This document shows, one piece after another, positions 11,901 to 45,765 of a stretch of 45,765 nucleotides of DNA (its first letter is position 1; every line of letters begins with the position of its first letter). This DNA comes from a virus: the IMG/VR virus record IMGVR_UViG_3300025133_000204, positions 1 to 45,765 of that record, one strand, 5' to 3'. Made by a program: the position numbers and the translations under genes. The notes under the pieces were generated by a model that ran no database searches, was not told the DNA's origin, and saw only the letters and a list, made by a program, of their open reading frames with translations.

Positions 11901-14900
11901 AACTTTTACAAGATAAATGGAATGGCCGACCAATACCAACTATTGAATATCTAGAAGATACTATTAAGCAAATTTATGGTGGTATGTTAGGAAGAAAAAT
12001 CCCAGATCATGCTGAGATCGACGGTCGCGACAATTATGGTGTTGGTGTTGTCTCGAAGGAATGGGGATCTGATATAGCCTCACCCACTTTCGTTGGGGGG
12101 GCACTACCGAATGATCGTGCCGTTGCTGGCGGCAACCCCCGCGACAACCCCGCCTATTCTGGCTTCGCGGATCCATTCAATGTGACTGGATATGAGGTTG
12201 CAGAAGAACAATCTGTCCACGATTTCTTGAATTCAAACCGTAGGGATGATCTTGGGTTCGATCAGAATCAAAAGTATCCACGCGGCTATGAAGAACATTT
12301 AGGGCTTAGAGGCGATCTTGAAAGTTTACCCAATCGTGGCCTTAAATGGGGATATACGCTTATTTATATCTTAGATCAGATCAGAAGTCGCTTAAGAAAT
12401 TTTAAAGGCATGACTGTGCTTGATGATGATCGGCCATCGGAACTCGGGTATTCCATACAACTCCATACATACCAAACTTACAAGGACAAGCCAAGCTGGG
12501 CTGTACTCGAAAACACTCGCACTGCGGACGGTGGCCTCTTTAGCAACCTGCACATTAATCAGCAACGAAAATTTGGTGTTACTGAAAAGAGCCATTTCGA
12601 TGACATCGGTAATCCACGTAGAGAATATTTTGGATGGGTTCCAGGCGCGGGAAGCCCTTTAAGCCACTGGCCACCGCATCTTCATACACAACAAGAGAGA
12701 AATAGACACCGATTTCCCTATACCACTACCAAAATCGGCCCAGACTCTGGAACAAGACCAACGGCCCACGAAGCCATCTCCCAAAGTCGTGGCGGGTTTA
12801 CAACTGTTTTTAATGAACTGAAAAACAATGCCGATTGGTACACTAATAATATGAGTAATTTATCAATTGGTTTGGAAGCTCCATTTGATAATCCTGAAAT
12901 TTATGGAGAGTATCAACAGTGGAAGATCCAACCCGGAACCGACGCCCGTAAGAAATATAAAACGGTCTTCGTCCAGTTATGGGAATTAGATTTTTGGATG
13001 AATAAGTTAACTGCACTTATGTTGCTTGAACCTAATTTTGTAAATTTTAGAAGCCTTAAGGATTACCCGCAATTCTTGGAAAAAGTAAAACTCGCAGCAG
13101 AACACATTCGAGATCAATTTAAGAAAGATCTAAAATGGAGAGAAAACGAACAACGGCGCATTAAAGATGAACTTGGAGATGTTTTTAATTCTCGTAAACC
13201 AAAGGGAAACATTTTAACCATGTTTATGGATAACGGTGGGCTGATCTATGAAAAATACATTCGCCTTAAAGAAAAGGATTGGCAGGCTCTTGAGGATAGA
13301 ATAACAGAGGCCGGAACTCGCGGCATGATAGATACAGCCCAGGCTCTGACTCAATTAGGGAAACTGAAGACCGAAGCCGAAGACAGGAATAATTGGCTAA
13401 AAGGGGCAGTTAATATTGATTACTTCCAAAGATGGCTTCAGGACCACCTTACTGTAATCGAACAAAATTATGATGAAGCTTTAGAAGCACCACAACAATT
13501 CTCGGTTCCTCGTGAAGTGATAGGCAGCGTTATCCCCGACGAAGACTGTGGAGAGGATTTGTTGGTTACTCGCACATTAACCGATTTTCCTGCAATCTGG
13601 GACCAGACTTTAAGTCTTAATGATCTTTTCGAAGAAGCTAGTTTTGGATTTAGAATCACAGCTGTTGCATCTCCACATGCTGAATTGTTGATTCAGAAGG
13701 TTAAAGCGACAGCACAAACCACAAGCCAATGGGAATTCACCAAGCTAACACAAATTGAGAAAGCCTATTTAATGCACGAGGAAGGAGAATACTATGAAAC
13801 ACTTGATCTTGATGACACTTCGGGGGAAAACATTGTAACACGCAAAGTTGAAATTAAATCTGACTATGTAACGATTCCTCTTGTTTCTGTTGAATTGCCG
13901 ATTGATCCCAATCTCTCACTATCTGAACTCATCGGAACGGTGGAGATTTCCTCTCCTGTAAGCACTGATACTATCAAAGTTGAAAAGATGAGATATCTTT
14001 ACAACAAAAAGCTTCCAGAATTACTTCGGGTTCTGAGAGAAACCGACGAGTTTAAATTCTTGTTTAAATACTGTTTCCCCGTTGATAGGATGTTTTCATT
14101 GAATCTGATGTATATTCTTCTTTATCTTGGACAAATACCCAACGTAGACAAGACTTTTAACAATACGAAGCAGACATTGAAAACAGTTTTTAATGCTTTC
14201 TTAAATTCAGGAAATTATCAGTACGAAAGCGACATCACTAATCAAACATTAGATAAATACGACATGGCAAATCCTGGTGATTCTCCCGGTGTTGATTTAT
14301 GGTCGATAGCAAAGAACTTTTCTTTGATGGCATTTCGTGCAATCACTGAGATGGTTGATCCTAACATTCAATTAAGCAGATTTATTTATAATGGGTTGGA
14401 GACAGGCGTCAGCGCAGCAAATAGCGTATTTGGCGAAGAATGCGGTGTAAGCATTGAACTCCCACCAGGAACCTTCTTCGCAATTTCATGGGGTCTGTTG
14501 CCTATAAACATTTTCGGCGCATTCGGATACGGCCCTCCCATAACTCCAATGGGAATTGCCTACGATGTGGTGTTTGGCATTATAGATCCTCTGGCTTCTT
14601 CTGCTACCAAGAATAATCAACGATGTCTTGCCAAAAAAGCCGGTGGTAGAGATTTTACAAATGCTATAGAATGTAACGACGATGAGGAAGAAGCTACATC
14701 TTCAGCCGATACCAACATCCCCTATGCAAACGAAGATGATTTCGCAGCCGGTCTAGTTGATAAAGACGGGAATCCCATTCCACCAGAAGAACAACCACCT
14801 TCATCTATTAGTGCTGGTCCAAAATATAAAGGGCACGTAGTTTCTTATATTGATGAACGAGGTCGAAGACGTGATGAGTTTGGAAGGGTTATTGACGATG

Positions 14901-18832: not shown

Positions 18833-21800
18833 ATGGCGAACATTAAAAATCTTTTTAATAATAATCCGAAAAAAATTCTCTCTTCTGCCAGTTTAAATGA
18901 TATCGGAGCTTCTATTGAATCCGCTGATTATGTCAAGAGAAATTTTCAAGACCATCAGAGGTTTATTCCGCATGTAGATTTTACGTCTGCTTCTAATTTC
19001 GCATTTTATGGTTCTGCCGAAAAGTACGGCGATGATGCATTTACTTATATTTCCAACGAATACCCGTATGATGGTTCGCTGAAAGAAAAGATAGAATGGG
19101 AACTCTCAGGAACCTATTACGACAAATACATTTTTGACAGTGTTTATCCGAGGACTACTGGATACATTAATCATGGTTTAGATTATGGAACTGTTATTAC
19201 TATTCCAGAAATCGGCGGCGGATTTTATGATTATAGTCGTCATGAATACATAAAATTTCTTGGTGGACCACATACTGGTTCTAGTAATGTATCTTCTAAT
19301 TTGACTAAAAATTTTACTGGTTCAAATGTTTATAAAGCTAGTGTTAATCAAGAATCTAACATCGAATTAGATGGTGATAGTGGTTTTGCTGTAGAATTCT
19401 GGTTCAAAAAAGATGCATGGGTCGAACCGACTGGTGAATGTAGAGCACAAGTTATTTTAGATATATGGAATAGCTCATCTGCAACACCTGGTCGCCTTAC
19501 AATTTGGGCGGATCGATCTGCCCCAAATGTTTTATTTCTAGAAATTGTATCTGGCTCTGTCCAAACTTACATTTCAGACCTTGGCTCATCGCTGCCCATT
19601 GTAGGGAGCGATTGGAATCATTACGCTTTAAATTTTGAAAATGTAGGAAACGATCTTCAAACTAAACTTTATCTCAATGGCGGTTTAAACAATACCAATA
19701 CGTCAACTGGCAACGCCATTCAGAAAGTTACAGGCTCCTTTTTGGGCTACATTGGCGCTCTTACTAGAGCCACTGAAGTTTTGGGCTACGGCGGCGAAGG
19801 TTACGGTAAACTTTCTGCCTCTCTTGACGAATTTCGCTATTGGAAAACAAAAAGAACACCAGAACAAATTGCTAGAAATTGGTTTACGCAAGTCGCAGGC
19901 GGCACCAACACAGACTATTCCACACTAGGAACAGGCTCTACAAAGTATAGTCCAGGTCGTCCAGTAGATTTGGGTATCTATTATAAATTTAATGAAGGCA
20001 TTTTTGATAGTGGAAGTGCCAATTCAAAAGATGCTGTTGTTTTAGACTATTCAGGACGACTATCAAATGGTAACTGGATCGGCTATTCTCTCGGTGCTCG
20101 CAGCACTGGCTCTGCGATGATTGAAAGTTCTGCGTCTGCGACTGAGTTTAAAGACCCAATCTTGGATCTGGCGAGTCCGCTTGTTAGCGCCTCATTAAGC
20201 GATTTAAAGATAGAAGGGCAATTTTATGATTCTACAAATAATGCCTCCATTTTCCACACACTCCCTGGATGGATACGCGAAGATGATTTAGAAAATAGCG
20301 GTGAAGTTCTTTATAAATTAACCCAAATAATCGGAAGTTATTTCGATACTCTACAACTTCAGATTCAGTCAGTTCCAAGACTCAAAGATCAAAACTATTT
20401 CAGCGGAAGTTATAAACCCTATCCGTTTACCAATAGAATAATTGAAAACCTTGGTTTTGAAGTTGGAGAACTTTTTACCGAAGCAGATGCATTAGAATCT
20501 TGTGCATCAAGAGATGATTTTAGAAATTTTGAACAGAAGTTAAACGAAGTAAAAAATAGAATTTATTCAAACCTTTATAACAATCTAGTTGGAGTTTTAA
20601 AGTCAAAAGGAACAGAAAAAGCATTCAGAAACATTATTAGGTGTTATGGAATAGACGAAAATCTTGTAAAACTAAACCTCTACGCCGATCAATCAGAATA
20701 CATTCTAAGAGATAATTTTGATTCTTCCACAATTCGAAAGAGATATGCCGATTTTAATGCCTACAATCGCGTTGAATCCACAGTCTATCAATCAACATCC
20801 AGTGTCGAAACCGCAAATACTAGAGCCTATCTAAGTTCTTCTGAAGAAATGAAGTATCGTGGCAATACTTTTGAAGCAGAAGTTATCTTTCCACAAAAAA
20901 TCTCACGGGAATTGGACAACTATTTTGCTAATAATTTTGTAGAAAGCTCAATTTTTGGAGCACATACAGTTAATCCAGCTTCTCCAAATGATGATCAATG
21001 GCATCTCCCAGATGCTTCAAATTTTGTTGTTAGTTCTGTTAGACCAAGCCGTGGCTCTGAATCAGTCTATTTTAAATTAAGTGCAAGTTCCGGCTTTAGT
21101 TCTTTCCCAGTTTTAACCAGTTCTTTAATCAATGATGTTTATACAGACACAAGATGGAATTTAAGCGTTAGAGTAAAGCCAAAAGCAAATCCCTATGCGA
21201 GTGATGTTGTTACTGGCAGTATGGATTATGAATACGATGTTATCTTTTCTGGATTTCAACCAATCGCAGATTCATTTCACAATTCGTTTACAGCAACAGG
21301 CACACTTTCAAATGATGCAGGCGTTCAGTTTTTAACAGGTTCTAAAAAAATGTTTGCTGGTGCCCATCGCACAAACTTCACTGGTTCTACAATAACCAAG
21401 TCAGATGTTAAGATTTCTTCTGTTCGCGCTTGGATGGATTACCTAGATGACGCTACAGTTAAATTTCATGCCAAAGATTCTGCAAATTTTGGAACTAAAT
21501 CTCCATTAAAGAGTGCATACATGACTCCAAGTGGAAGCGGCTTTTTTGGCAAAAATGTTGATAAAATTCCACAACTAAAGACACTTGCTATGGATTGGGA
21601 TTTTGAGACTGTCACAAGCTCAACTGCGGCTGGAGTATTTACAGTTCAAGACGCATCATCCGGTTCGCAAGCAGATACTCTCGAATATGGTTGGCTTGGA
21701 CCAATTTCTCTCTATCAACATACTGGTCGTGGCTTTGGATTTCCAGTTTCAAGTACAAGCTCCATTAGTCGAGAGTATGTCCAAACTGCAAAACAATTAC

Positions 21801-24800
21801 TTCCAGAAGTTCTTAATAGTTCTGACATGGTTAATCTTGTTGATTCAAACGATGATTCTTTATTTACACGCGAATCTCGTCCTATTACTTTTTTCTTTGC
21901 AGCCGAAAAGAGCATGTATCGGATAATCTCAGATCAAATTTTAAAGATTTTTGCAACCATTGTTGATTTTAATAATTTAATCGGAGAGCCAGTTAATAGA
22001 TACCGGCCAGAATATAAGCAATTAGAAAAATTAAGAAATGCCTATTTTAAGAGAATTGAAAACAATACTATTGATTTTGAGAAGTTTGTAGATTATTATA
22101 AATGGATCGATCAATCCATTACGATTGCTCTTTTGCAGATTTTCCCTGCGTCCGCAGATTATTCAAATAAACTTTGGACCATGATCGAAAGTCACATTCT
22201 TGAGAGAAATAAATACTGGACCAAATTTCCTCTTGTAAAGAAATTTCCCGCAACTGAAGGTTCTGTTCGCGGCATTAATGAATTAAGTTATAATTGGAAA
22301 TTTGGTCATGCGCCAAATTATCTTCCTATTTCTTTAAATACTAGCTCAAGTATAGTTTGGGGAAACTTGATCAATACTACTGCTTCTGCAAATGGGGGAC
22401 TTAATAAAGGCACTGGCCTTACTGGATATAATGCTTGGGCGTCGGCACCACCCATCGATCAAGATGATGCTTTTACGGTTTCATCCAATTTTACAACCAG
22501 ATTCAATAGCATGTATGTCGGACTTAATACAAGCTCGGCTCCAGAATACGATGTTTCCAATTGGCAATTTTCTTGGCTCTTGGGCGGCGGTCTTTTTGGG
22601 ACTGATGGGTCTGTAGCTGCTAAAGTAGATAATGCTACGGTCTGGTCATGTTTGGAGTGTCTTGATACCACACACTACTATCGAATCAAACGGGAATATG
22701 GAAAAATAATTTTCCAAAGAAGTACGGATGGTAGTGTAACATTTGATGATCTCTACACTCATGAGTCCTCTTGCGGTAATTATGAAGATTTGTATCCCGT
22801 TTTTACTTCTGTGACAGCAGGAGGCAGCAACACAGGACTTTCGGCTGCAACAGCAAGTCAAGGTTCTACTAGTAATTGTCTTTGGTGGAAAGACAGATTC
22901 GAACCATGCGGCACTGACGTTAATAACCAAAGAAATACTTTTAGAATGTTAAATGCAACAACGCCATTTTCTACGGCTAGCATTTCTCAATCTAATGTTT
23001 TTCCAACACTATTTCAACCAGATGGCACAGCCTATTATGGCGATGTTTATGGGATAAGAAATTTTTCTCAAATTTATCAGTTTAAAGTTCAAGAATCTAA
23101 AGAATTTAAAGGTGGTGCGAATGTACCAAGAATAAAAAACCTGCAATATGCTCACACTGAACTTCCATTTGGAACTTCTACACAACTTAAGATTTCAGCT
23201 CCTAGTATTGAAAATAATGATACTTGTAATGATGTAATTGATCCGAACGATAAAGATAGATTAAGTTATAAGTTAATAAACAATCCAACAAGTTACAAAT
23301 CAGGAAAAGGTGAAATCTTTGCGCCATTTAGCTTATTTAGTTCTTCCGTCACAACTGGATATGTTGCAGACCTGGCATCAAATTTCAAAACAAGTACAGA
23401 TTTGGTTAATTATCATAACGACGTTTATGGCGGCGATAACGAAGTCCCACTGCAAGGTCCATTCACAGAAAAGTATGTCGGTGGTCGAGAATACAGACAT
23501 GTGCGTTTTCCAACTACAAGCAGCACTGTAAGACCAGAAGCTTGGGATCTAGACCTTGAGTTGGGCAATCAAAAAAGTATTCAATTTGATAATTCCAACA
23601 ATAACGAATGTATTACAGTAGCATCATCTTCCGCAATACCCGCAGGTTTTGCTGATGGCGATTTTTCAGTTTCCGTATGGGTATATGGCACTGGTGGGAA
23701 AACAACTTGTGATAAGGTATTTGATAGAGGATCAAGCACTTGGGCAAACGGCTGGGGAATGAACCTCGGATGTAGTGATTCAACAAAAATGACCTTTTGG
23801 GTCGGTCAATACACCCGTTTTGCCGAAGCAGCCTTCGCTGAAGATGAGTGGGTTCATTATATAGCAACGTATAATCAATCAGATGAAGAATTCATTATTT
23901 ATAGAAATGGTGTAGCGGGGACGACTCAAACAAGATTGGCTGGTGCAATTCGCACAACGCCACTTTTTATTGGAAATAGTGATCCAACATCCACTTCAAA
24001 TTATACTTGGCCGGGATATATAAATGATGTTGTTTTTTGGAGAAATACGTTAAGCCAAGAAGAAATCACAGCCATTTATAATGACGGTTGTACTCTAGAC
24101 CCAAGATTTGCTCGAACTGCGGAGAATAGCAGAGTAGCTCGTCCAGTCAGTTGGTTTAGAATGGGTGATGATGATACATACCCAATTATTAAAAATGTAA
24201 TAAATTCAGCAGCCAGTGGCACGATGACCAATATGGCTGCTGATGATATAGTTTTAGCATCACCTTGTTCTAGCAGTAACAAACTAGCAATAAAAACCCG
24301 CACAGCTCACCAACCACGTTCAACAATTTTACGTGAACCTCTTGCCAAACGCCCAGTAAACATTCGTAACATTCGAATGACAACTGGTTCAACAATTCTT
24401 GGAAACTATGAACGTTCCTATGAATTAGTTCAAACAAATGGCAGATCTATAAACAATAGATTCTTTGTTAAGTCTGGTGGATTTATTCCAACAGCATCAG
24501 CATCGACCTATTTGGTAAACACTGTTGAGTATGCGTTGCCGAGATTTGATTTAACAGGAACTAATCAATACATCTTTGTTAATCATTTTAATGCTCCGGG
24601 TGGACCTGATGTTTCCTCAAGAGGCGTTTTAGATTACATAGCAGAAGAATATGCAATCTATAATGATTTAAATTTTAGAAATTCGGTTGTCAGAGATGCA
24701 TTAAAAGAATGGCAAACTGAATACTGTGGACAGTTTGGGATTAAACCTCCAAATACTGCAAGCGCATTAAATTACGATACGAGCGCATCCTATCAGAAAG

Positions 24801-27800
24801 TTAATCGCAACACAAGGATTTTAGCAGCAACTACAACCACAACTGGGACTTTGCGGGACAATTGGTTTGTTCAACATGCAATTCCACAAAGCGCATATCA
24901 GTATAGTTGGATTACTGCATCCGTTAGTAAAAGCGCAACAGACATTGAAGAAATGGCCTATGGTTATACTTCAAATGCCAGCATTCCGTCTGGAACAACC
25001 TCTATGACTCAATCAATGCCACCATTTATTTTGGCAAGTGATAGCGGATCAGGTCCAGTTTTGAGTGATTTTGTTGGATTAAATACACTTATTTATGATC
25101 CATTAAATTCAAGTGAACGAATTTTAAGTGCTTCTGATGACATTTATCGAAACGATTTTTTGACGGGAGGCTTAAAACAAGCCAGCGTCTTGAACGCACT
25201 TCTTTTGCATAGAAATGGACCCTATCAAAATCCGTCTTGGAAGCAAATTAGAGGTTATGAAAATCCGATTGTTCGCAATCAGCGAAACAACAACATTTTA
25301 AGTATGAGAGAACAGCCTTCCGATTCTCTCTATGTTGATAGTAAATTAGGAAGAAGAATTGATCCAGGCGTAAGTGGAACTGCTGTTAAGTTTATGCCGC
25401 CCTTCCGTTCTAAAACAAATAAAACTCCAACAACTTTATGGGTTACTGCAAGCCTTACAGAACCGCCAGTCTCATTTAAATATAAGCCGATTGTAACTGT
25501 TTTGAGATCAAATGATGCCACGGAAAAATGCGATTTTACTTATCTTGCACATTCTTATGGAAATAACATCGCAACTTTTGCGAACAATACATTTATAGAC
25601 CTGTTGGCAATTGACGAAGACTTGGTTGAAAGCCGACAAAACTATCACAAAATAAGAAAACTTTATGAAAATAATGCGTCTGCTGTTTTAAAGAAATTTA
25701 CTTACGGCGAAGTTGTTTATCCTCGTGATGTTAATACTGGTCTTAATAAAGTTAGAATGCGAACAAATTATGCGGAAGTTGCAAACAGTATTGGAAGTAA
25801 TGGTATAAATCGCGGACTCTTATCTCGTAGAACTTTTTGGAGAAATTCGAGAGATGACAGAATTCAGGGAAGATGGTCTGGTTCAGCGGGTGTTACAACG
25901 CCAGCCTATAACACACTTAATTTTCCCGATCAAGGAGCGATGAGCGTTTGGCCTTTAGATAGTATTTTAAATGCTGAATTTCCTGGTTGTGAAGGCGCAA
26001 GTGCAGGAGAAGACCAATATTATCCTGGCTCTGAGTTGATTAGATATAGCACAGGACATGCAGTGGTAGCTCCTATGTTTTTCACGGGCGCTTCCGGCCC
26101 CGATGCCGCACCAAATTCAAGGTATGATGGACAACAGACTACAGCTTCACTATTATACGCATATGAAGCTTCTTATCAGACACCTATCACCAGCGTTGAT
26201 AACGTAGAATGGGTTACAAATCGTGAAGCACCTTATGGTTCAGGAATAAATCCTTGGTTTGATTCCTACGAAGAATATTCTAATGATATTAAACGAGTTG
26301 CTAAAGAGTTTACAATTTTGCCAGAGTTTAAAATTTCAGATCACGTAGATTATTACGTGAATGAAAATGGAGGAGATTTTAGAGTAATAAACAACAACTT
26401 CTTAGATCTTGATGGCGCTTCTATAACTTCTAGTGCTGATTCTGCGACTGCAAATCTTAATCAAGAGTTTTTTGCCACCTATTCGAATTCTGATTTTCAA
26501 AAGTATTTTGGAACGTTTTCTGACGATGCTGCGTTAAACAAAATTACTTTAACGTGTAATGGTGTTAAAAAACTGCTCCCTTATAATGGGTTCTATCCCG
26601 TATTAAGAACCACACAAATTGGAGGCATTTTATCTCAATCTCTTGCTTCAAGCATTGGCGGAATTGGAATTAAAGATGGGCAACCAATAAGTTCTGAGTT
26701 TGGATTATCTGGTACTTTATCCGTTCAATCTGCCATGCAACCATTTTTTGCTCCCGGTGTGATGTTTAATTCTATTAAATCGGGTATTGCAGTCGATTGG
26801 CCTGTTTTTACAGGATCGTTAAATGTTTCTGCATCAACTGCGGGTGCTTTTTATGTTGGGGGTATGATAACCGAGACTCCAAACTATAGAATACCATTCG
26901 AGTCGTTAGTTTCTTTTGCAGATCATATTCCAATTTCGTCTTCTGATGGAGAGGGGAAGGTGAGTTTATTGGATACCAATGGTTTCGGATATCTCGTTCA
27001 AGGCTCTCACGAGAGATTACCTTATTTTGATTGGAATGGTTCAATAAAACCAACTTTTGAAATGGCCACTAACAACTTCTTAGCAGAAGTTCCCAATTTC
27101 TTTTTGAAAGATAATTCTTTTACAGTAATTGCTTCAAACCCTGAAAATCAATTTAAAACGTTCAAATCAGGTTCTTCCTATTATATGGACGTATTTTTGG
27201 AAATGCCGTGGTCAGGATCTTCTCGTACCGTTATGTTTGAAGGTAAAAATAGTCCCGGCGATCCCGATATAACACTCCCAACAACCACTTTACCAACTTC
27301 GGGCTCAAACCCAGAGGTAAAAGGGCTTCGAGGCAAGTGGTTCGGCCCTACTTACCAATTTACCAGTTCTTATTGGCAGCAAGACGATTCGGCTATTGGC
27401 AATAATTTAAATCTAGATCCAGCCCAAGCCCCTTGCACACCACCCTATTATTATGGAAAAAGTATTGCAACTATTAAGTACGTCTCAGATGGAACAGAAT
27501 CAGGCGCTGGAATTTTGGAAAAGATTTTATCCCAAGCAGAAATAACTTATTCAAATCCTGAATTGTTAAAAATGGTTGCTGGTGATGAAGGCACGAATTC
27601 ACCCGCAATTCAGGGAGCGATGATGCTTTCATCATCCTTAAATTTGCTTGGTAAAACAAGACTAAAACAAATAGAATATAACTTAAACCAAAGCAAGGGG
27701 AATCAATTTGTACCTGCTACTGCAAAAGACCCTGCTGATTCTTCTTTTGATGCGTGGGCGATTAGTCCAAAATTTGAAACTCCAATTTTGGATTTTTCGA

Positions 27801-28762
27801 ATCAAGTTAGTTGTGGTCAAAGTGGACTTCTTAATACAGCCCGTGGAATGTGGTCTGGTTATGGCGAATTTTGCACTGGTAGCAAAGGACTAATTTTAGG
27901 AATCGAAGAAACTTATCCAACATTACCACAAGGTTCGGGAGAAAATACAACAGGATTAACAGGTTCTTTGTTGAAACAATGCGGTTTCGACTCAGCTAAA
28001 AAACGCGAGAAAGTTGGAGAAATTGCAGATAAAAAAGTCATTTCAGAAGCTATTGTAGCAATTCCTTATTTGGAAGGTTCAATTCCATCTAAAACTTCTT
28101 TTGCAAAAACTATCGGAAGCCCAATTTTACAAAAATGGTTCTTTACATTGTCTGGAAAAACCAAGAAACAATCCAGAAAATTGTATAATCAAACAAAAAT
28201 AAATGTTCAAAATGATGTTGAGCCTTTGACTAATTTGCCGTTTAAAACAACAGACGCAATTACAGAAACATCAGTTTCAGATTTAACGGAGAAAATGGAG
28301 AATTATGTTATCCCTCCACAACTGAATTTTGATCTTTATTCTGACATTGAGCCATTTGTAATGTATTTTATGGAATTTGAACATGAACTAGATCGTCAAG
28401 ATTTGGCAGACATTTGGCAGGGAGTAATGCCAAAAATTTCAAGAATTGCAGAAAAAGACACATCTATAGTCGAGCATCAAGTTGCGCCTTGGGAATTCTT
28501 CGGCGGACAACAACTTCCAGAAGGAATAAAATGGATGGTATTTAAAGTTAAGAAAAAGGCAGCAATTAATTATTTCGCAGCCACAGCAGATTCATCGGAT
28601 GATGATCGCTTTAAATTTAACTTTAAAAACAACAAAAATGCAGTCCCTGATTATAGTTATAACTGGCCCTATGATTACTTTTCACTTGTAGAGTTAGCTC
28701 AAATTGAAGTAGAAGATGAGTTTAAAACTGTTCGGAATGTACCAGGCGAGGAAGAAACGTAA
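18833..28762 (+). CDS. Giant baseplate protein with two LamG domains and a gpI/gp7-like segment (3309 aa)
   Basis: This is one 3309-residue frame. Residues about 165-350 form a LamG/concanavalin-like jelly roll (SGFAVEFWFKKDAW, DWNHYALNFENVG, LDEFRYWKTKRTPEQIARNW). A second LamG lies at about 1577-1755 (DFSVSVWVYGTGG, EWVHYIATYNQSDEEFIIYRNG, NDVVFWRNTLSQEEITAIYN). Between them, residues about 470-625 resemble P2 gpI / the I-like part of T4 gp7 (HTLPGWIREDDLENSG, then LKSKGTEKAFRNIIRCYG), which contacts gp6 in the wedge. The gene follows gp6 after one intervening gene, as expected for a gp7 equivalent. LamG domains commonly bind glycans, so a receptor or cell-surface contact role is plausible. 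The C-terminus (about 3150-3309) has a further folded domain ending in YNWPYDYFSLVELAQIEVED. No break or frameshift was seen. Confidence 0.65.
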   Translation: MANIKNLFNNNPKKILSSASLNDIGASIESADYVKRNFQDHQRFIPHVDFTSASNFAFYGSAEKYGDDAFTYISNEYPYDGSLKEKIEWELSGTYYDKYIFDSVYPRTTGYINHGLDYGTVITIPEIGGGFYDYSRHEYIKFLGGPHTGSSNVSSNLTKNFTGSNVYKASVNQESNIELDGDSGFAVEFWFKKDAWVEPTGECRAQVILDIWNSSSATPGRLTIWADRSAPNVLFLEIVSGSVQTYISDLGSSLPIVGSDWNHYALNFENVGNDLQTKLYLNGGLNNTNTSTGNAIQKVTGSFLGYIGALTRATEVLGYGGEGYGKLSASLDEFRYWKTKRTPEQIARNWFTQVAGGTNTDYSTLGTGSTKYSPGRPVDLGIYYKFNEGIFDSGSANSKDAVVLDYSGRLSNGNWIGYSLGARSTGSAMIESSASATEFKDPILDLASPLVSASLSDLKIEGQFYDSTNNASIFHTLPGWIREDDLENSGEVLYKLTQIIGSYFDTLQLQIQSVPRLKDQNYFSGSYKPYPFTNRIIENLGFEVGELFTEADALESCASRDDFRNFEQKLNEVKNRIYSNLYNNLVGVLKSKGTEKAFRNIIRCYGIDENLVKLNLYADQSEYILRDNFDSSTIRKRYADFNAYNRVESTVYQSTSSVETANTRAYLSSSEEMKYRGNTFEAEVIFPQKISRELDNYFANNFVESSIFGAHTVNPASPNDDQWHLPDASNFVVSSVRPSRGSESVYFKLSASSGFSSFPVLTSSLINDVYTDTRWNLSVRVKPKANPYASDVVTGSMDYEYDVIFSGFQPIADSFHNSFTATGTLSNDAGVQFLTGSKKMFAGAHRTNFTGSTITKSDVKISSVRAWMDYLDDATVKFHAKDSANFGTKSPLKSAYMTPSGSGFFGKNVDKIPQLKTLAMDWDFETVTSSTAAGVFTVQDASSGSQADTLEYGWLGPISLYQHTGRGFGFPVSSTSSISREYVQTAKQLLPEVLNSSDMVNLVDSNDDSLFTRESRPITFFFAAEKSMYRIISDQILKIFATIVDFNNLIGEPVNRYRPEYKQLEKLRNAYFKRIENNTIDFEKFVDYYKWIDQSITIALLQIFPASADYSNKLWTMIESHILERNKYWTKFPLVKKFPATEGSVRGINELSYNWKFGHAPNYLPISLNTSSSIVWGNLINTTASANGGLNKGTGLTGYNAWASAPPIDQDDAFTVSSNFTTRFNSMYVGLNTSSAPEYDVSNWQFSWLLGGGLFGTDGSVAAKVDNATVWSCLECLDTTHYYRIKREYGKIIFQRSTDGSVTFDDLYTHESSCGNYEDLYPVFTSVTAGGSNTGLSAATASQGSTSNCLWWKDRFEPCGTDVNNQRNTFRMLNATTPFSTASISQSNVFPTLFQPDGTAYYGDVYGIRNFSQIYQFKVQESKEFKGGANVPRIKNLQYAHTELPFGTSTQLKISAPSIENNDTCNDVIDPNDKDRLSYKLINNPTSYKSGKGEIFAPFSLFSSSVTTGYVADLASNFKTSTDLVNYHNDVYGGDNEVPLQGPFTEKYVGGREYRHVRFPTTSSTVRPEAWDLDLELGNQKSIQFDNSNNNECITVASSSAIPAGFADGDFSVSVWVYGTGGKTTCDKVFDRGSSTWANGWGMNLGCSDSTKMTFWVGQYTRFAEAAFAEDEWVHYIATYNQSDEEFIIYRNGVAGTTQTRLAGAIRTTPLFIGNSDPTSTSNYTWPGYINDVVFWRNTLSQEEITAIYNDGCTLDPRFARTAENSRVARPVSWFRMGDDDTYPIIKNVINSAASGTMTNMAADDIVLASPCSSSNKLAIKTRTAHQPRSTILREPLAKRPVNIRNIRMTTGSTILGNYERSYELVQTNGRSINNRFFVKSGGFIPTASASTYLVNTVEYALPRFDLTGTNQYIFVNHFNAPGGPDVSSRGVLDYIAEEYAIYNDLNFRNSVVRDALKEWQTEYCGQFGIKPPNTASALNYDTSASYQKVNRNTRILAATTTTTGTLRDNWFVQHAIPQSAYQYSWITASVSKSATDIEEMAYGYTSNASIPSGTTSMTQSMPPFILASDSGSGPVLSDFVGLNTLIYDPLNSSERILSASDDIYRNDFLTGGLKQASVLNALLLHRNGPYQNPSWKQIRGYENPIVRNQRNNNILSMREQPSDSLYVDSKLGRRIDPGVSGTAVKFMPPFRSKTNKTPTTLWVTASLTEPPVSFKYKPIVTVLRSNDATEKCDFTYLAHSYGNNIATFANNTFIDLLAIDEDLVESRQNYHKIRKLYENNASAVLKKFTYGEVVYPRDVNTGLNKVRMRTNYAEVANSIGSNGINRGLLSRRTFWRNSRDDRIQGRWSGSAGVTTPAYNTLNFPDQGAMSVWPLDSILNAEFPGCEGASAGEDQYYPGSELIRYSTGHAVVAPMFFTGASGPDAAPNSRYDGQQTTASLLYAYEASYQTPITSVDNVEWVTNREAPYGSGINPWFDSYEEYSNDIKRVAKEFTILPEFKISDHVDYYVNENGGDFRVINNNFLDLDGASITSSADSATANLNQEFFATYSNSDFQKYFGTFSDDAALNKITLTCNGVKKLLPYNGFYPVLRTTQIGGILSQSLASSIGGIGIKDGQPISSEFGLSGTLSVQSAMQPFFAPGVMFNSIKSGIAVDWPVFTGSLNVSASTAGAFYVGGMITETPNYRIPFESLVSFADHIPISSSDGEGKVSLLDTNGFGYLVQGSHERLPYFDWNGSIKPTFEMATNNFLAEVPNFFLKDNSFTVIASNPENQFKTFKSGSSYYMDVFLEMPWSGSSRTVMFEGKNSPGDPDITLPTTTLPTSGSNPEVKGLRGKWFGPTYQFTSSYWQQDDSAIGNNLNLDPAQAPCTPPYYYGKSIATIKYVSDGTESGAGILEKILSQAEITYSNPELLKMVAGDEGTNSPAIQGAMMLSSSLNLLGKTRLKQIEYNLNQSKGNQFVPATAKDPADSSFDAWAISPKFETPILDFSNQVSCGQSGLLNTARGMWSGYGEFCTGSKGLILGIEETYPTLPQGSGENTTGLTGSLLKQCGFDSAKKREKVGEIADKKVISEAIVAIPYLEGSIPSKTSFAKTIGSPILQKWFFTLSGKTKKQSRKLYNQTKINVQNDVEPLTNLPFKTTDAITETSVSDLTEKMENYVIPPQLNFDLYSDIEPFVMYFMEFEHELDRQDLADIWQGVMPKISRIAEKDTSIVEHQVAPWEFFGGQQLPEGIKWMVFKVKKKAAINYFAATADSSDDDRFKFNFKNNKNAVPDYSYNWPYDYFSLVELAQIEVEDEFKTVRNVPGEEET

Positions 28763-38009: not shown

Positions 38010-39107
38010 ATGGCAGCAACTTTTAAAGAACTAAACAATAACGACATAACAAACACAAGGACGCTTTTGCATGAATCCATTCCCCTCACGGGAACGATTG
38101 TGTCAGGCACTTACGGTGGAGCTACTGTCGCACTTGGAAGTGAACCAAATATTAAAACCTATTCACACGGCATGTTTGAAAGTGTTTATGATTATCCATA
38201 TCTATCTTCTTCCGCCAATCACATTTTTGACTTAACTGTGGGTTATTCATCGGATTCTGTTTTCTCAGGATCTGGAACTCAAAACGCAAAAAAGATCAAC
38301 ATTTATAATCAAATGGCCGCTGTTTTAATGGGTCACGATGTTTCAGGAAACATCCAAAAATTTGATGAAGACGGTGATATTACAGGCGGCGGAACAAAAT
38401 TAGAATCTTGCATGTTTGTTAATTTTGCACGGCTTTTAACAAAAGATGAAATCAAGAAAGGTTCATTTAGTTTGCAACTTGGAGCAAGCGCATCTTTTGA
38501 TAGTGGCTCAACTAATCGAACAGAAATGAATTCTCTTATAACTATTGCAGATACAAATGCTGCAACTAGTTTTAAAGTAAATTCACCAACTGGCGAATAC
38601 GGAATTCTTTACGGAACGGGTTCTGTGATGCCCGCAAGCACACCCGTTGGCCTTCTATTTTATCAAGCTGGCGTTGCAGTTTTAACAAGCAGCATTTGGG
38701 ATACTTATGGTTATAATGGTGCAGCTGGCAGCGGCACAATGGACATGAGCAGTTCCACAAACTCTCTTACAAACTTTTTGACTGGCGCAACTATTGGTGC
38801 AGCCGCAGACTATGCTTTTAGGCATCGCTTGTATAATTTAAGTTTTAATAATACAACGGAGTTGAATTCAACGATTTATTTCTGCCGCGCAGGTAATTCA
38901 GAATTTAATTATAGTTCTAACCCCACCTATCTTTCAGCGAGTAAGATGCGTGTTAAGAATACCACAACTGATGATCCAGTTGCATACATGACGACGGTTG
39001 GCTTATATTCTCCAGATAATGAACTTCTTGCAGTTGCAAAATTGTCTGAACCACTTAAGAAGACTCCAACAAATGAATTAACTCTGCGTGTAAGACTCGA
39101 TTATTAG
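38010..39107 (+). CDS. Virion structural protein, member of tandem paralogous pair (first copy)
   Basis: This is a 365-residue protein rich in Ser, Thr, Gly and Asn, typical of tail or fibre proteins. Motifs include KKGSFSLQLG, then VGLLFYQAGVAVLTSSIWD near residues 210-230, and the C-terminal VGLYSPDNELLAVAKLSEP leading to LRVRLDY. All three recur in the next protein (KGTVSLKF, GVVLYDEGIFMLTGSW and VGIYDKDKNLIGLAKMATP, ending LKLKLDF). An AAAAGGAA ribosome site precedes the ATG. The pair probably arose by tandem duplication and then diverged. Function is otherwise unknown. Confidence 0.62.
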   Translation: MAATFKELNNNDITNTRTLLHESIPLTGTIVSGTYGGATVALGSEPNIKTYSHGMFESVYDYPYLSSSANHIFDLTVGYSSDSVFSGSGTQNAKKINIYNQMAAVLMGHDVSGNIQKFDEDGDITGGGTKLESCMFVNFARLLTKDEIKKGSFSLQLGASASFDSGSTNRTEMNSLITIADTNAATSFKVNSPTGEYGILYGTGSVMPASTPVGLLFYQAGVAVLTSSIWDTYGYNGAAGSGTMDMSSSTNSLTNFLTGATIGAAADYAFRHRLYNLSFNNTTELNSTIYFCRAGNSEFNYSSNPTYLSASKMRVKNTTTDDPVAYMTTVGLYSPDNELLAVAKLSEPLKKTPTNELTLRVRLDY

Positions 39108-39130: not shown

Positions 39131-40363
39131 ATGCCACTTTATAAATTTGACAGAAACGATGTTTTTCGTAATCAGATAAAAACATTTCCAACTATAAATT
39201 TATTTACCTACACTGGTTCTACTTTTTATAACAATCAAATTGCTGAAAGTGGCGCTTTCAGTTATAACATAAACGGAATTCCAATTTTGCCACCAAGTTC
39301 TTCGTGGTCTGGAAGTATCAGTTTATTTGAATTGAACATAGATCCGGCACCTGGAAGTTACATTAGTGCATCCATGATCAAAGGTTCAAACCGCGAGGGA
39401 TTTAAACATCGACTCCCGCATGGATTTGGCACTTTAAAGCAGCGAATAGACGAAGAAAATTTAGAATACAGCCGAGCCGCATTCGGTGACGAATTTGCCA
39501 AACATTATCCAATGTCGGCTTCTGTAACAAATGCTTTTTACAGTGCAATTTCTCCAAGCGCAACTTCTCGCACTGGTTCAGCAAATTACTTTTCTTCTCT
39601 TATGCAGCCAATAAAAAAATACACAATTCTGAATAGGAATTTTATTTTTAGTTCTAGCGGAAATTGGGACAAGGGCCGACAAGAAATGCGACTCATTAGT
39701 GTTCCTTCAATTTTCTATGGCTCGTCTATTGCAAAAGGAACAGTCTCGCTTAAGTTTATTATTAATGGAACCGCATCACAAGAAGTCACAGATTATTATA
39801 AAGATGGAACTTTAAGAGTGACAGGTTCAACATCGGACGATGGAAAAATTGCTGGTGTCGTTCTTTACGATGAAGGCATTTTTATGCTTACTGGGTCTTG
39901 GAATATTGTAAATGACTGGCAAGATGACTATAACGAGGATGGCAATTTAGAATATCCTCGCTGGACCTATTTTGGAGTCACAAGTTCAGCCACTACTGGT
40001 TCAAGTTTTCACATGGCGTTTAGCGGAACTAACTATGTTCCGGTGGTTACAATGTTAGCCCACGCGCCAAAAGGACAACTTAATCAATCTAATAATCCAA
40101 CTTTTGTTGTTTCTGGATCGTCGCGTTTGGCCTATACTGGTTCTACTGCATACCGAGAAAATAAATCCTTGCCAATTAAAAACATTACAAAGTCAAATTT
40201 AACTGGTGCATTGGTCAGCGCAAGTTTTGAAAAAACAACTTTTATAAGCAAAGTTGGGATCTATGATAAAGATAAAAACCTTATTGGACTTGCAAAAATG
40301 GCAACTCCTGTACGAAAAAGAGAAATAGATGAATTTACATTTAAATTAAAGTTAGATTTTTAG
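39131..40363 (+). CDS. Virion structural protein, member of tandem paralogous pair (second copy)
   Basis: This is a 410-residue protein with many Ser, Gly and aromatic residues. The C-terminal half is clearly related to the preceding protein: a strand pair with AKGTVSLKF, GVVLYDEGIFMLTGSW (about residues 245-260) and the final 45 residues with VGIYDKDKNLIGLAKMATP and FKLKLDF. The N-terminal half (MPLYKFDRNDVF, SGAFSYNINGIP) differs from the first copy, suggesting a shared C-terminal fold with different N-terminal attachment or display parts. No clear ribosome site precedes the ATG. It is the last structural gene before the replication block. Confidence 0.62.
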   Translation: MPLYKFDRNDVFRNQIKTFPTINLFTYTGSTFYNNQIAESGAFSYNINGIPILPPSSSWSGSISLFELNIDPAPGSYISASMIKGSNREGFKHRLPHGFGTLKQRIDEENLEYSRAAFGDEFAKHYPMSASVTNAFYSAISPSATSRTGSANYFSSLMQPIKKYTILNRNFIFSSSGNWDKGRQEMRLISVPSIFYGSSIAKGTVSLKFIINGTASQEVTDYYKDGTLRVTGSTSDDGKIAGVVLYDEGIFMLTGSWNIVNDWQDDYNEDGNLEYPRWTYFGVTSSATTGSSFHMAFSGTNYVPVVTMLAHAPKGQLNQSNNPTFVVSGSSRLAYTGSTAYRENKSLPIKNITKSNLTGALVSASFEKTTFISKVGIYDKDKNLIGLAKMATPVRKREIDEFTFKLKLDF

Positions 40364-40387: not shown

Positions 40388-40738
40388 ATGAAAGAGCAAA
40401 TAAAAAAATGGAAAAAGTTTTTGAGTGAAACTAAAATTTCTTTGCAAGATTCATATGAAGCTAATTTTATTTTACAAATAATTAAATCGGAAAAAATTGA
40501 TAGAACCGAAGTTATGGGATTTATTCGCGCCATTCCAAATGTCACAACAGTTCAGAATGAAGGTGAAATTTCTTCATCAAAGCGTTATTATATTGCATCT
40601 TATAGGGTTCGCTTTGTTCTACGCCCTGGCCAAGATGCATCTTTATTTTATTATAAATCTCTTAAACCATTATTAAATAAGATCGATGGAGTGACAATAC
40701 AAAGAGATAGGGGTTTTAAAAAGGTCGAACAAGATTGA
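40388..40738 (+). CDS. Small alpha/beta protein with leader-like N-terminus, unknown function
   Basis: This is a 116-residue protein. The N-terminus MKEQIKKWKKFLSETK is a short basic amphipathic helix ending in L-S-E, resembling T4 capsid-targeting leaders (MKTYQEFIxE). Residues about 40-116 look like a ferredoxin-like beta-alpha-beta fold (RTEVMGFIRAIPNVTTVQ, YYIASYRVRFVLRPG, LLNKIDGVTIQRD). Similar small proteins occur in T4-like environmental phages without an assigned function. Its stop overlaps the resolvase start as TTGA. Confidence 0.6.
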   Translation: MKEQIKKWKKFLSETKISLQDSYEANFILQIIKSEKIDRTEVMGFIRAIPNVTTVQNEGEISSSKRYYIASYRVRFVLRPGQDASLFYYKSLKPLLNKIDGVTIQRDRGFKKVEQD

Positions 40739-41262
40739 TTCTAGGATTAGATATATCGACATCCATCACAGGCTATACAATCTTAAATTCAGAAGGAGAG
40801 ATTGTTAAAATTGGTCATTGGGATTTGAGGAATAAAAAGTATTTCCCAGATTTATTTTCCAAAGCTAAATTTATTAAGAATAAGCTTGGCGAACTTAATT
40901 ATAAAATTAATCATGTCTTTATTGAGCCAGCCCTCAACATGTTTATGATGGGTCGTTCTTCTGCTCACACTATTTCAACTTTAATTAAATTTAATGGCAT
41001 TATCTCTTGGATGTGCTATGAACAATTTGGGATTGAACCTGAATTTATTCCTGCTATTTCCGCCCGCAAAAAATGCGGCATTTCTATAAAACGGGGCACA
41101 AAAGCTAAAGAACAAGTAATGGCTTTTTTGCTTGACAATGAACCCAATTTTCGTGTAGAATTAACAAAGAATGGAAACCCAAAACCATATTGTTATGATG
41201 AAGCGGATTCATTAATAATAGCGCGGGCAGGAATTGAATGTCTCAAAAGCAAATTAAAATAA
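40735..41262 (+). CDS. RuvC-like Holliday-junction resolvase
   Basis: This is a 175-residue RNase H-fold nuclease that would resolve branched DNA before packaging, the job done by endonuclease VII in T4. The RuvC acidic residues are visible: Asp6 in MILGLDISTS, Glu64 in VFIEPAL, and Asp155/Glu156 with Asp158 in YDEADSLIIARAG. The middle (AHTISTLIKFNGIISWMCYE, then FIPAISARKKCGI) follows the family order. The start is TTG at 40735, giving MILGLDIS, with the upstream stop overlapping it. It shares 25 bases with the primase gene, so the two are probably co-translated. Confidence 0.87.
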   Translation: MILGLDISTSITGYTILNSEGEIVKIGHWDLRNKKYFPDLFSKAKFIKNKLGELNYKINHVFIEPALNMFMMGRSSAHTISTLIKFNGIISWMCYEQFGIEPEFIPAISARKKCGISIKRGTKAKEQVMAFLLDNEPNFRVELTKNGNPKPYCYDEADSLIIARAGIECLKSKLK

Positions 41263-42149
41263 TAAAAGATTTTCTCGGATCTCATTATAAATCCAAAGAT
41301 GAGTATCTTTTTTATTGTCCGAAATGCAAACACCACAAAAGAAAACTTTCTTTAAATTTTGACAAAAATGTTTTTAAATGTTGGATCTGCGATTATATTG
41401 GAAAAGACATTGGAAGATTAGTTTATTCCTATGGCACACCAGAGAACAAAAGACAATGGAAAGTAATCGCTGGTGTTGTCGATTTTTCAGAATTGGACGA
41501 GAAAGAAGAAAAGCTAACAGTAAAATTACCAGAAGAATTTATTACATTAACTGGAAAGAAGGTAAAGCCTTTATCAATTCCTGCTAGAAAATACTTGAAG
41601 GAAAGAAATTTAACAAGAAGCGATCTTGTTTGGTGGAAGATAGGTTATTGTCCAGATGGAGAATTTGAGAAAAGAATTATTATTCCCTCATTCGATCTAA
41701 GTGGAAGTGTAGATTATTTTATTGCTCGCTCATACACTTCTGGTTCTTGGCAAAAGTATAAAAATCCACCTTCAGAAAAAGATTTTATCTTTAATGAACT
41801 GTATCTTGATTGGAATAGTGGTGTGACAATTGTTGAAGGAGTTTTCGATGCGATGGTCGCCGGTAATGCTATTCCTTTATTGGGCTCTACATTACGTGAA
41901 AATAGCTATGTTTTTCAAAAAATCCTAGACAACTGTCAAGAGATTTACATCGCCCTCGATGCAGACGCCACAGAAAAAGAATTAAAAATAGGCAAACTAT
42001 TTATGTCATATGGCGTGGATGTTTACAGGATTGATACTTCGGGGTTTGGAGACATTGGAGAGATGGATAAGGAAACATTCCAAACTCGCAAGAAAACTGC
42101 CACTTTTCTTTCTTTAGATAACTATTTAGTGGAGAAACTTTCGTTTTAG
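41238..42149 (+). CDS. DnaG/gp61-like DNA primase
   Basis: This is a 303-residue compact primase. A CHC2-type zinc ribbon lies at the N-terminus with Cys27, Cys30, Cys48 and Cys51 (CPKC and CWIC). A short RNA-polymerase-like N-domain (LKERNLTRSDLVWWKIGYCP, RIIIPSFDLSG) and a Toprim domain follow. Toprim acidic residues are Glu200 in VEGVFDAM and Asp241/Asp243 in ALDADAT. It would lay RNA primers for lagging-strand synthesis with a helicase partner not in this window. T4 gp61 has 342 residues, so the size fits a phage primase without a fused helicase. It overlaps the resolvase gene by 25 bases. Confidence 0.88.
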   Translation: MSQKQIKIIKDFLGSHYKSKDEYLFYCPKCKHHKRKLSLNFDKNVFKCWICDYIGKDIGRLVYSYGTPENKRQWKVIAGVVDFSELDEKEEKLTVKLPEEFITLTGKKVKPLSIPARKYLKERNLTRSDLVWWKIGYCPDGEFEKRIIIPSFDLSGSVDYFIARSYTSGSWQKYKNPPSEKDFIFNELYLDWNSGVTIVEGVFDAMVAGNAIPLLGSTLRENSYVFQKILDNCQEIYIALDADATEKELKIGKLFMSYGVDVYRIDTSGFGDIGEMDKETFQTRKKTATFLSLDNYLVEKLSF

Positions 42150-43092: not shown

Positions 43093-43120
43093 TTGACTTA
43101 TCTGGTCAATGTGATATAAT
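43093..43120 (+). promoter_or_regulatory. Strong sigma70-type promoter with extended -10
   Basis: TTGACT (43093-43098) and TATAAT (43115-43120) are separated by 16 bases, and TG stands one base before the -10 (TGA-TATAAT), an extended -10 element. This is close to the bacterial housekeeping consensus and suits early or middle transcription by unmodified host polymerase. The expected transcript start is about 43126-43128, within a few bases of the ATG at 43129. Confidence 0.75.
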
Positions 43121-43128
43121 AACATTAG

Positions 43129-45765
43129 ATGAAATTTGCCCACATCGCGGACACCCACATACGCAATCTTAAATACCACACAGAATATCAAACAATTTTT
43201 AATAAAATCTATGACGATCTTAAAAAAGAGCAAGTAGATTGTATTGTTCACTGTGGAGACATTTGCCACACAAAGACACAAATCTCGCCAGAGTATGTGG
43301 AAATGACCTCAAATTTTCTATCAAGTTTAGCCGACATAGCTCCGACTTACATTATTTTAGGAAATCACGATGGAAATCTCAGAAATGAAAATCGTCAAGA
43401 TTCAATCACTCCGATCATTGATGCGTTAAATCATAAAAATTTACACCTTCTAAAGAATTCTGGTGAAACAAAATTAAATGATAATTTTACATTAAATGTT
43501 CTTTCAGTCTTTGATGACACAAATTGGAAAAAACCAACCGATAAAAACAAGACAAACATCGCTCTCTATCACGGTTCTGTGAGTGGGTGTTTGACTGACA
43601 TTGGTTGGAAAATGGAACATGGCGAAAATGAAATTTCAATTTTTAAAGACTTCGATTATGCGATGCTTGGAGATATACATTTAGAAAATCAAATACTCGA
43701 CAAAGAAGGTCGCATCCGATACGCAGGTTCAACCATTCAACAAAACTTTGGAGAATCAACTTGTAAGGGTTTTTTGCTTTGGGACATCAAAGATAAAGAA
43801 AACTTTACTTGTAAACCATTTCTATACACAAGTCCAAAGCCATTTATCTCAGTGTCGTTAACAGCTGATGGGAAAATACCTGAACTCGAAATCCCGGAAG
43901 GTGCTCGTGTGCGATTGATGGTTGAAAATAGCTTGTCTGTGATAGCTCTCAAAAAAGCTGTCGATGTCGCAAAAAAGACATTTAAACCAGAGTCTATTTC
44001 TGTAATCAATAAAGCGACCTTCATAAACAATGTGGAATTTGAAGAAGGCTTTAAAAAAGAAAATTTAAGAGATCTTGTAGTCCAAGAAAAATTAATTCGT
44101 GAATACTTGGAAGATTATAGGATTAATAAAAATTTAGAAAAGCGGATCATGGAACTCAATAAAAAGTATAAACAGATTGTTGAAGAAACTGATGAAACAT
44201 ATCGTAATACAGACTTTGAAATTCTTGAACTCAAATGGGATAACCTGTTTAATTACGGAAAAGGCAATCGCATTAACTTCACGAATTTCACTGGAATTAC
44301 GGGGATTTTTGGGAAGAACTTTTCTGGCAAGTCAAGTATCGTTGATTCACTTTTGTTCACGATTTATAACTCAATTTCAAAGAATTCTCGCAAAAACATC
44401 AACATTATCAACAATGACAAGACCACAGGAATGGGTCGAGTAAGAATCAAGCGTGGAACCAAAATTTATACAATTACAAGGCGTATGGAAAAGTGGTTAA
44501 AAAAATTAAAAGGTAATGAAACTGTCGAAGCCCGAACAATTGTTGATTTTGAATGTTATGATCTTGTAAGCGAAAAAAACACTTCGTTAAATGGTGTGAC
44601 AAGAGCCGAAACAGATCGAAACATTGTTAAGTATTTCGGAACAATTGATGACTTCCTTTTAACATCAATGTCTTCTCAACTTGGATCTTTGGCTTTTATT
44701 AATGAAGGTTCAACAAAGAGGAAAGAAATTCTTGCAAAGTTTCTTGATCTTGAACTTTTTGATAAGAAATTTAAAAATGCAAAAGACGACGCAGCAGAAT
44801 TAAAGGCCAAGATTAAAATTTTAGAAAATGTTGACTATGATTCAGAACTGAAAAAACATAGAGATTTGCTCTTTGACAATGAGATAACAACTCTTAAGAG
44901 AAAAAATAAGTGTCAATTATTGAAAGATGAAATTGGAAAAAATCAAAAAGAAGTGATCGAGTTGGAAAATAAAATAAATTCAGCTCCAACTGAGATTATA
45001 AATATTGTCAATGTTCGCAAAGGAATCAGTGAAAACGAACAAAAATTATTAACTTATGAAAAAGAAATTGTAGAGCAAGAAGAAGATAACGAAAAAAATA
45101 AAAATAAAATTGAAAAAGCAAATGAATTTTTAAAGACTTTTGAACTTGAAGCTTTGACTCAAAAGAAAGCGCAAATTTCAGATATGGAAAAAGAGTTAGA
45201 AAATTTATTAGAAGAAATAAAATTCGATAACCTAGAACTACAGCGAAAAGAATCTCAAACGAAACTCTTGGATGTAGTCCCATGTGGTCCTGAGTTTTCT
45301 CATTGTAAATTTATTCGTCATGCCTATGAAGCAAAAGAATCAATCCCAACATTTCATCTTTCAATAGATAACAATAATAAAATTTTGGATTTGTTAAATG
45401 ATAAAATTTCAGATTTAGATTCAGAAAAGGTGGAAAGCGAGCTTGAAAAATTTAATCATCTTTTGCAACTAAAAAAAGAATTAGAAAACAAAACTCCTTC
45501 AAATGAACTTCTTGTCGAAAATTATAAATCAAAAAAATCAATTGTTGAATTAGAATTAATAAATTTGCAAAGAAAAGAAAAGATTTATGAAAAGAATAAA
45601 GAGGTTATTGAAGATTTAGAAGGAATTATAAAGGACAAAAACAAGGTCCAGTCTCAACTGATAAATTATAATAATGATCTTGAAGGGTGTGAAAGCGCTT
45701 TATTAGAACTTTATAAATCTCATGGATATCTTGAACAGAGAATTGAAAATTTAGAACAAAAGCAA
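43129..45765 (+). CDS. Single-chain Mre11-Rad50 (SbcD-SbcC / gp47-gp46) recombination protein, 3'-partial
   Basis: The frame is open for all 879 codons to the window end. Residues 1 to about 335 are an Mre11/SbcD-type nuclease: Asp8-Thr-His10, Gly43-Asp44, Gly-Asn79-His80-Asp81, His148 in YHGS, and Gly-Asp182-Ile-His184, plus the YAGSTIQQNFGE capping strand. After a helical linker (about 335-365) a Rad50/SbcC ATPase begins: LKWDNLFNYGKGNRI, Walker A GKNFSGKS (395-402) and a Q-loop-like SMSSQ near 515. From about 545 a long coiled coil runs to a hook-like Cys719-x6-Cys726 and then returns. Walker B and the signature motif must lie beyond the window. In T4, gp46/gp47 are separate genes processing DNA ends for recombination-dependent replication. 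The start is fixed by the family's MKFxHIADTH opening. No ribosome site is visible. Confidence 0.9.
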   Translation, partial: MKFAHIADTHIRNLKYHTEYQTIFNKIYDDLKKEQVDCIVHCGDICHTKTQISPEYVEMTSNFLSSLADIAPTYIILGNHDGNLRNENRQDSITPIIDALNHKNLHLLKNSGETKLNDNFTLNVLSVFDDTNWKKPTDKNKTNIALYHGSVSGCLTDIGWKMEHGENEISIFKDFDYAMLGDIHLENQILDKEGRIRYAGSTIQQNFGESTCKGFLLWDIKDKENFTCKPFLYTSPKPFISVSLTADGKIPELEIPEGARVRLMVENSLSVIALKKAVDVAKKTFKPESISVINKATFINNVEFEEGFKKENLRDLVVQEKLIREYLEDYRINKNLEKRIMELNKKYKQIVEETDETYRNTDFEILELKWDNLFNYGKGNRINFTNFTGITGIFGKNFSGKSSIVDSLLFTIYNSISKNSRKNINIINNDKTTGMGRVRIKRGTKIYTITRRMEKWLKKLKGNETVEARTIVDFECYDLVSEKNTSLNGVTRAETDRNIVKYFGTIDDFLLTSMSSQLGSLAFINEGSTKRKEILAKFLDLELFDKKFKNAKDDAAELKAKIKILENVDYDSELKKHRDLLFDNEITTLKRKNKCQLLKDEIGKNQKEVIELENKINSAPTEIINIVNVRKGISENEQKLLTYEKEIVEQEEDNEKNKNKIEKANEFLKTFELEALTQKKAQISDMEKELENLLEEIKFDNLELQRKESQTKLLDVVPCGPEFSHCKFIRHAYEAKESIPTFHLSIDNNNKILDLLNDKISDLDSEKVESELEKFNHLLQLKKELENKTPSNELLVENYKSKKSIVELELINLQRKEKIYEKNKEVIEDLEGIIKDKNKVQSQLINYNNDLEGCESALLELYKSHGYLEQRIENLEQKQ

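Follow-up and report, generated by a model that had tools for sequence, protein, structure and literature searches.

A single-chain Mre11-Rad50 fusion protein encoded by a contractile-tailed phage and its conservation among phage contigs

The gene at the 3′ end of the window, which is the whole stretch of DNA analysed here, a virus record of 45,765 bp, encodes an Mre11-type nuclease and a Rad50-type ATPase in one open reading frame and belongs to the already described Mre11/Rad50 fusion proteins. We consider it highly probable that its product is a single-chain Mre11-Rad50 machine, corresponding to SbcD-SbcC and to T4 gp47-gp46, with which a contractile-tailed phage processes DNA ends by the mechanism outlined below.

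The frame (Table 1) is free of stop codons from the ATG at 43129 through position 45765, over the full 879 codons named in a first-pass annotation of this DNA. Pfam searches detected Metallophos over residues 1-184 (2.4e-12) and AAA_23 over residues 368-585 (7.8e-8), which agrees with that annotation's description of one chain with the nuclease N-terminal to the ATPase. This is the arrangement by which Mre11/Rad50 fusions have been defined (PMC3175470), the complete chain being seen in homologues. The full length of the relatives is about 1047 aa, and the last ~168 residues are absent from the window copy. The annotation had also announced a Rad50 N-lobe with Walker A and the start of a coiled coil. 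All of these are present, but their extent was understated, as the frame additionally holds the hook (C719 to C726) and most of the returning coil.

Table 1. Features of the fused gene and its upstream region (all coordinates refer to the window).
Feature	Position	Strand	Remarks
RuvC-like Holliday junction resolvase	40735..41262	+	phrog_159, 5.6e-10
DNA primase	41238..42149	+	phrog_47, 1.3e-34
Promoter-like TTGACT-16-TATAAT	43093..43120	+	consensus match alone; ends 8 nt before ATG
Fused Mre11-Rad50 CDS	43129..45765	+	ATG start, 879 codons, 3′ end cut by contig end
Mre11-type phosphoesterase domain	43129..43818	+	residues 1-230; motif residues invariant in alignment rows covering them; homologue model
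Capping-domain equivalent	43819..44028	+	residues 231-300; model of 81%-identical homologue and Foldseek to SbcD nuclease-plus-capping structures
Helix pair, equivalent of the Rad50-binding Mre11 helix-loop-helix	44074..44190	+	residues 316-330, 334-354; secondary structure in homologue model
Junction linker, about 7 residues	44191..44211	+	residues 355-361; without stop or frameshift; homologue model
Rad50 N-lobe	44212..44751	+	residues 362-541; AAA_23 match, homologue model
Walker A GKNFSGKSS	44311..44337	+	residues 395-403
Ascending coiled coil	44752..45282	+	residues 542-718; homologue model, low conservation
Hook region CGPEFSHC	45283..45306	+	C719-x6-C726
Descending coiled coil, cut by contig end before Rad50 C-lobe	45307..45765	+	sequence and homologue model

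The domain layout was refined with an AlphaFold2 model of the full-length homologue P0002, which is 81% identical to the window protein, calculated from a 44-row alignment. The model has a mean pLDDT of 83 and a pTM of 0.53, at which value the placement of the nuclease relative to the ATPase is not reliable. It shows the phosphoesterase and capping parts up to about residue 296, a poorly predicted stretch at 297-307, helices at 316-330 and 334-354, and a 7-residue linker. The Rad50 head begins with the N-lobe at 362 and carries a long coil from 542 with the hook near 719-726; the coil returns to 899 and is followed by the C-lobe to 1047. A capping and helix-loop-helix region leading over a short linker into Rad50, as expected of such a fusion, is thus predicted for this homologue. 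By analogy with Mre11 of T. maritima (PMC3175470), the helix pair would be the equivalent of the Rad50-binding element.

In Foldseek searches against the PDB, parts of the model matched Mre11-Rad50-Nbs1, SbcC, SbcD and archaeal Rad50 and Mre11. Among viral models, the best whole-length matches were “DNA repair exonucleases” of Tupanvirus, Harvfovirus, Yasminevirus and other giant viruses, together with proteins of phages PTm1 and pT24; the giant-virus matches (Tupanvirus, Harvfovirus and others) share 16-23% identity. The listed sequence and fold matches include no solved structure of a fused chain.

In T4-like, SPO1-like and T5-like phages, as in E. coli, nuclease and ATPase normally come from two genes, and such a pair, adjacent as in T4, could in principle have been joined by a sequencing or assembly error, a missed stop or a frameshift. 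Such an artefact has a negligible probability here, as one frame is retained in 162 relatives from many metagenomes, substitutions at the junction follow the codon structure, and isolate genomes show the same fusion. In detail, three close homologues come from viral contigs and are 81, 68 and 66% identical to the window protein across its 879 residues; in each, the gene is likewise one frame, of 1047 aa, which includes the C-lobe. Among 599 candidate stretches from a profile scan of viral contigs, at least 498 proved to be relatives, the best 80 of which were kept, and a genome scan added two MAG contigs. The resulting 82 close loci all have the gene in a single frame, but they do not equal 82 independent phages, because some of the viral ones are near-duplicates or coincide in part with an earlier locus on the same contig; in L053, this frame covers 3171 of 3353 matched bases in an ORF of 1063 aa. 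A second scan with a more distant member as query provided 80 further viral loci, and again all were in one frame (68 by motif pattern, the remaining 12 open on direct reading). The same domain order, at about 1,000-1,070 aa, is found in all 162 relatives (80+80 viral loci, 2 MAG contigs), a set of best-scoring loci in which sampling favours full-length matches.

The first-pass annotation had named two observations that would speak against a fusion. One was a stop or frameshift between about 44130 and 44220; none exists, and the junction at residues 355-361 is open. Between the window and L002, differences at codon positions 1/2/3 number 7/6/17 over junction codons 301-365 and 33/20/131 over codons 1-300, and this third-position bias indicates protein-coding sequence across the junction. 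The other, an equivalent sequence split into two genes, occurs in no close relative; two-gene sets exist in distant phages (T4, S-SSM7, SPO1-like, T5-like). The domain order that the annotation proposed to search for was found in viral contigs, MAG contigs and isolated phages.

One copy of the fused gene is interrupted. In L006 (LR756508.1, a 484-kb phage), a 305-aa ORF at 6665-7582 splits the gene directly after nuclease motif V and encodes a TnsA-like endonuclease domain (PF08722, 5.8e-6); a group I or II intron was rejected, as no Rfam match was found. A cellular or plasmid origin of the fusion was likewise rejected. The plasmid records hold only short metallophosphoesterase matches, and both MAG hits look like phage contigs, L087 with a phage RuvC and a primase, L088 with a primase and a phage endonuclease I.

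All five Mre11 motifs that had been claimed for the frame were located: DTH (8-10), GDICH (43-47), GNHD (78-81), HG (148-149) and GDIH (181-184). In an alignment of 84 proteins, D8, H10, D44, H47, N79, H80, D81, H148, D182 and H184 are invariant wherever a row covers them. When compared with the canonical ligands of Pf Mre11 (D8, H10, D49, N84, H173, H206, H208), six of seven are matched. The exception is motif V, which reads GDIH instead of GHIH, with Asp182 at the H206 position, that is, for the first His of the canonical GHxH, in 84/84 sequences. Judged from the alignment, the nuclease site is a variant Mre11-type site, and the Asp could alter metal binding. GDxH is found in most fused phage proteins, and GHxH is kept in T4, S-SSM7, both SPO1-like phages and E. 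coli. This distribution would also fit a chain in which the exchange has changed catalysis and whose main function is to tether or clamp DNA. We regard this as very improbable: none of the other ligands varies, Asp commonly coordinates metal ions, mimivirus R555 shows the identical exchange in motif V (PMC3175470), and the two-gene Providencia phage PSTCR5 carries GDLH. The strict conservation of the Asp-type motif V suggests a working site.

GDxxH in motif II combined with Asp at the position of Pf Mre11 His206 is a combination that the window protein shares with the R555-like subgroup, although these features are not exclusive to it, given GDLFH in the SPO1-like phages and GDLH in PSTCR5. 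The motif II form was rejected as a novelty on account of the same SPO1-like GDLFH. GDxxH in this motif also occurs in archaeal and eukaryotic Mre11.

On the ATPase side, the window itself has the Walker A motif, whereas the contig stops before the C-lobe motifs. These were found in all 83 relatives that cover them. The C-lobe supplied by the relatives has the signature SGAEK, a Walker B of the form ILDEP and an H-loop; the three close homologues read SGAEK, LDEPGTALD and, in the H-loop, SH. Walker B and signature are thus in frame downstream in homologues, as the first-pass annotation had proposed to verify, and the window's own C-lobe is assumed from homologues that are 66-81% identical. G400-K401-S402, D989-E990 and H1022 are invariant wherever a row of the 84-protein alignment covers them. 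Two hook forms exist within this one family, C-x6-C in the window and altogether 54/84 proteins and CxxC, the canonical Rad50 zinc hook, in 22/84, with other forms in 8; the window hook therefore differs from the canonical one. Mean pairwise identity is 26% in the coil and 60-66% in head and nuclease, as would be expected of a working Mre11-Rad50.

From its baseplate wedge proteins, late sigma factor and tail-fibre-like genes, the window is recognized as a fragment of a myovirus, a contractile-tailed phage, which was probably aquatic. Two giant genes lie among the baseplate and tail genes, 5987-14938 (2983 aa, no Pfam match) and 18833-28762 (3309 aa, lectin-like Laminin_G_3 domains). Neither structured RNAs nor tRNAs were found in the window. 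Among the 69 relatives with enough flanking sequence, the primase is located upstream of the fusion in every case and the RuvC-like resolvase is a neighbour in 61. Further upstream of the primase, the genes 38010-39107 and 39131-40363 are kept in 56-57 of these 69 relatives; they are without Pfam or PHROG match and cross-match each other in some loci.

In each of 12 larger related contigs (91-191 kb), Metallophos has a single match, which lies in the fused frame every time, and AAA_23 is confined to this frame in 10 of them. A RecA-family gene is present in 9/12 of these contigs, which are relatives and not the window. With a single Metallophos match per large contig and these neighbours, the fusion appears to be the only Mre11-Rad50 of the phage and to lie within a replication-recombination block. 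In one related contig (G005, the contig of L050, 156,945 bp), a RecA-family gene occurs at both ends, 518-1315 and 155931-156728, and scores equally at each, pointing to terminal redundancy or to the assembly overlap of a complete genome.

The genomic context also bears on the idea that the fused chain serves the phage as a weapon or in counter-defence, as an ATPase-nuclease which degrades host or rival DNA. Defence systems do include Rad50-like ATPases with nuclease partners, and according to the T4 record gp46/gp47 are needed for host-DNA degradation as well as for recombination. Defence genes are usually patchy in their distribution, whereas this fusion is conserved as the sole Mre11-type gene and adjoins primase and resolvase in nearly all relatives. 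Furthermore, degradation of host DNA could be a second job and not an alternative. We therefore consider a weapon improbable as the main role and favour end processing.

Upstream of the start codon, the TATAAT is kept at the same place in five members of the window's subclade (window, L002, L003, L004, L009). No Shine-Dalgarno sequence was found before the fused-gene start in this subclade, and most other relatives have a GGAG-type site. This pattern suggests a nearly leaderless transcript in the subclade. Throughout the window, the TATAAT-ATG pattern was found 7 times against 6.5 expected, so there is no excess over chance.

The first-pass annotation knew of no characterised single-chain version. 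The novelty implied by this does not stand, as Yoshida, Claverie and Ogata described Mre11/Rad50 fusions in 2011 from mimivirus (R555), Bacillus phage 0305phi8-36, bacteria, plasmids and eukaryotes (PMC3175470); at bench level the remark may hold, and a limited literature search found no biochemical or experimental study of the fused chain. The same authors reported R555-like genes to be abundant in aquatic viral metagenomes, proposed that they belong largely to phages, and presented the order of the fused parts as compatible with the T. maritima complex, with a 28 A gap and 9-12 linker residues (PMC3175470).

R555 and its relatives resemble the window protein in being viral and having the same domain order in one chain, and R555 as described shares the GDxxH of motif II and the Asp of motif V (PMC3175470). 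With 1351 aa, R555 is longer than the about 1047 aa found here, where the coil is shorter, and in contrast to R555 the window-type fusion occurs in tailed phages next to primase and RuvC. Fusions encoded as a single CDS, Mre11 then Rad50, are also known from isolated phages (Microcystis phage Mel-JY01, WWT39521.1; Tenacibaculum phages PTm1 and pT24; Sphingomonas phage PAU, gp288; Chryseobacterium phage MA9V-1), and annotated phage records carry such fusions as “metallo-phosphoesterase” or “DNA repair exonuclease”. Mel-JY01 has a primase just upstream, like the window, and its protein is about 31% identical to P0002; those of PTm1, PAU, pT24 and MA9V-1 form a separate, longer-coiled branch of 1300-1330 aa. 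T4 gp47/gp46 and the SbcD/SbcC of SPO1-like and T5-like phages are the same two enzymes but come from two genes and mostly have GHxH in motif V; the SPO1-like pairs likewise lie near genes for primase and sigma factors. E. coli SbcCD and archaeal Mre11-Rad50, whose structures and profiles are matched by each half of the fusion, consist of two chains, and the fused protein falls far short of the equivalog cut-offs for the SbcC, SbcD and Rad50 models.

In a quick tree of 40 rows, one branch (SH-aLRT 96) separates 34 fused phage proteins from six two-gene sets, and the window falls within a group of 16 fused proteins with a support of 100. With several long branches and E. coli as the sole cellular set, the tree does not establish that the fusion arose only once. 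We tentatively entertain, at somewhat less than even chances, that, within a tailed-phage lineage of very great extent, the fusion is old and the only form, with a fixed primase-nuclease block, an Asp-type site and interchangeable hooks, and that this phage-specific branch is the likely source pool of the scattered fusions in giant viruses and plasmids.

Under the preferred reading of an end-processing machine, the chain would be ordered as nuclease, capping domain, Rad50-binding helices, short linker, ATPase N-lobe, coil, hook, coil and ATPase C-lobe. For quaternary structure, nuclease activity and role in infection, we infer the following. Two chains would most likely pair through the nuclease and the ATP-bound heads into a two-plus-two assembly like that of the separate gene products; the retained helix pair would probably link each nuclease to the head on which it docks, and catalysis would presumably be otherwise conventional. 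Head movements driven by ATP binding and hydrolysis would admit DNA ends to the nuclease or shut them out. The products, 3′-tailed ends or opened hairpins, would pass to a RecA-type recombinase of the phage for recombination-dependent replication. By analogy with T4 gp46/gp47 (PMC3175470 and the notes of the T4 record), end processing for this mode of replication is the likely role. A fixed stoichiometry and a constrained opening of the complex would plausibly follow from the fusion.

What is added here is scale and context, that is, the fusion on long phage contigs, with fixed neighbours and as the sole copy. The long contigs confirm what the 2011 paper confirmed for few reads, namely that the fusions of aquatic metagenomes sit in the genomes of tailed phages. 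Thus, the fused Mre11-Rad50 is a major conserved phage form and not a sporadic one, a result of modest scientific weight. In addition, structural work on the ATP-driven movement of the nuclease could profit from a single chain of ~1,050 aa in which the ratio is fixed at 1:1.
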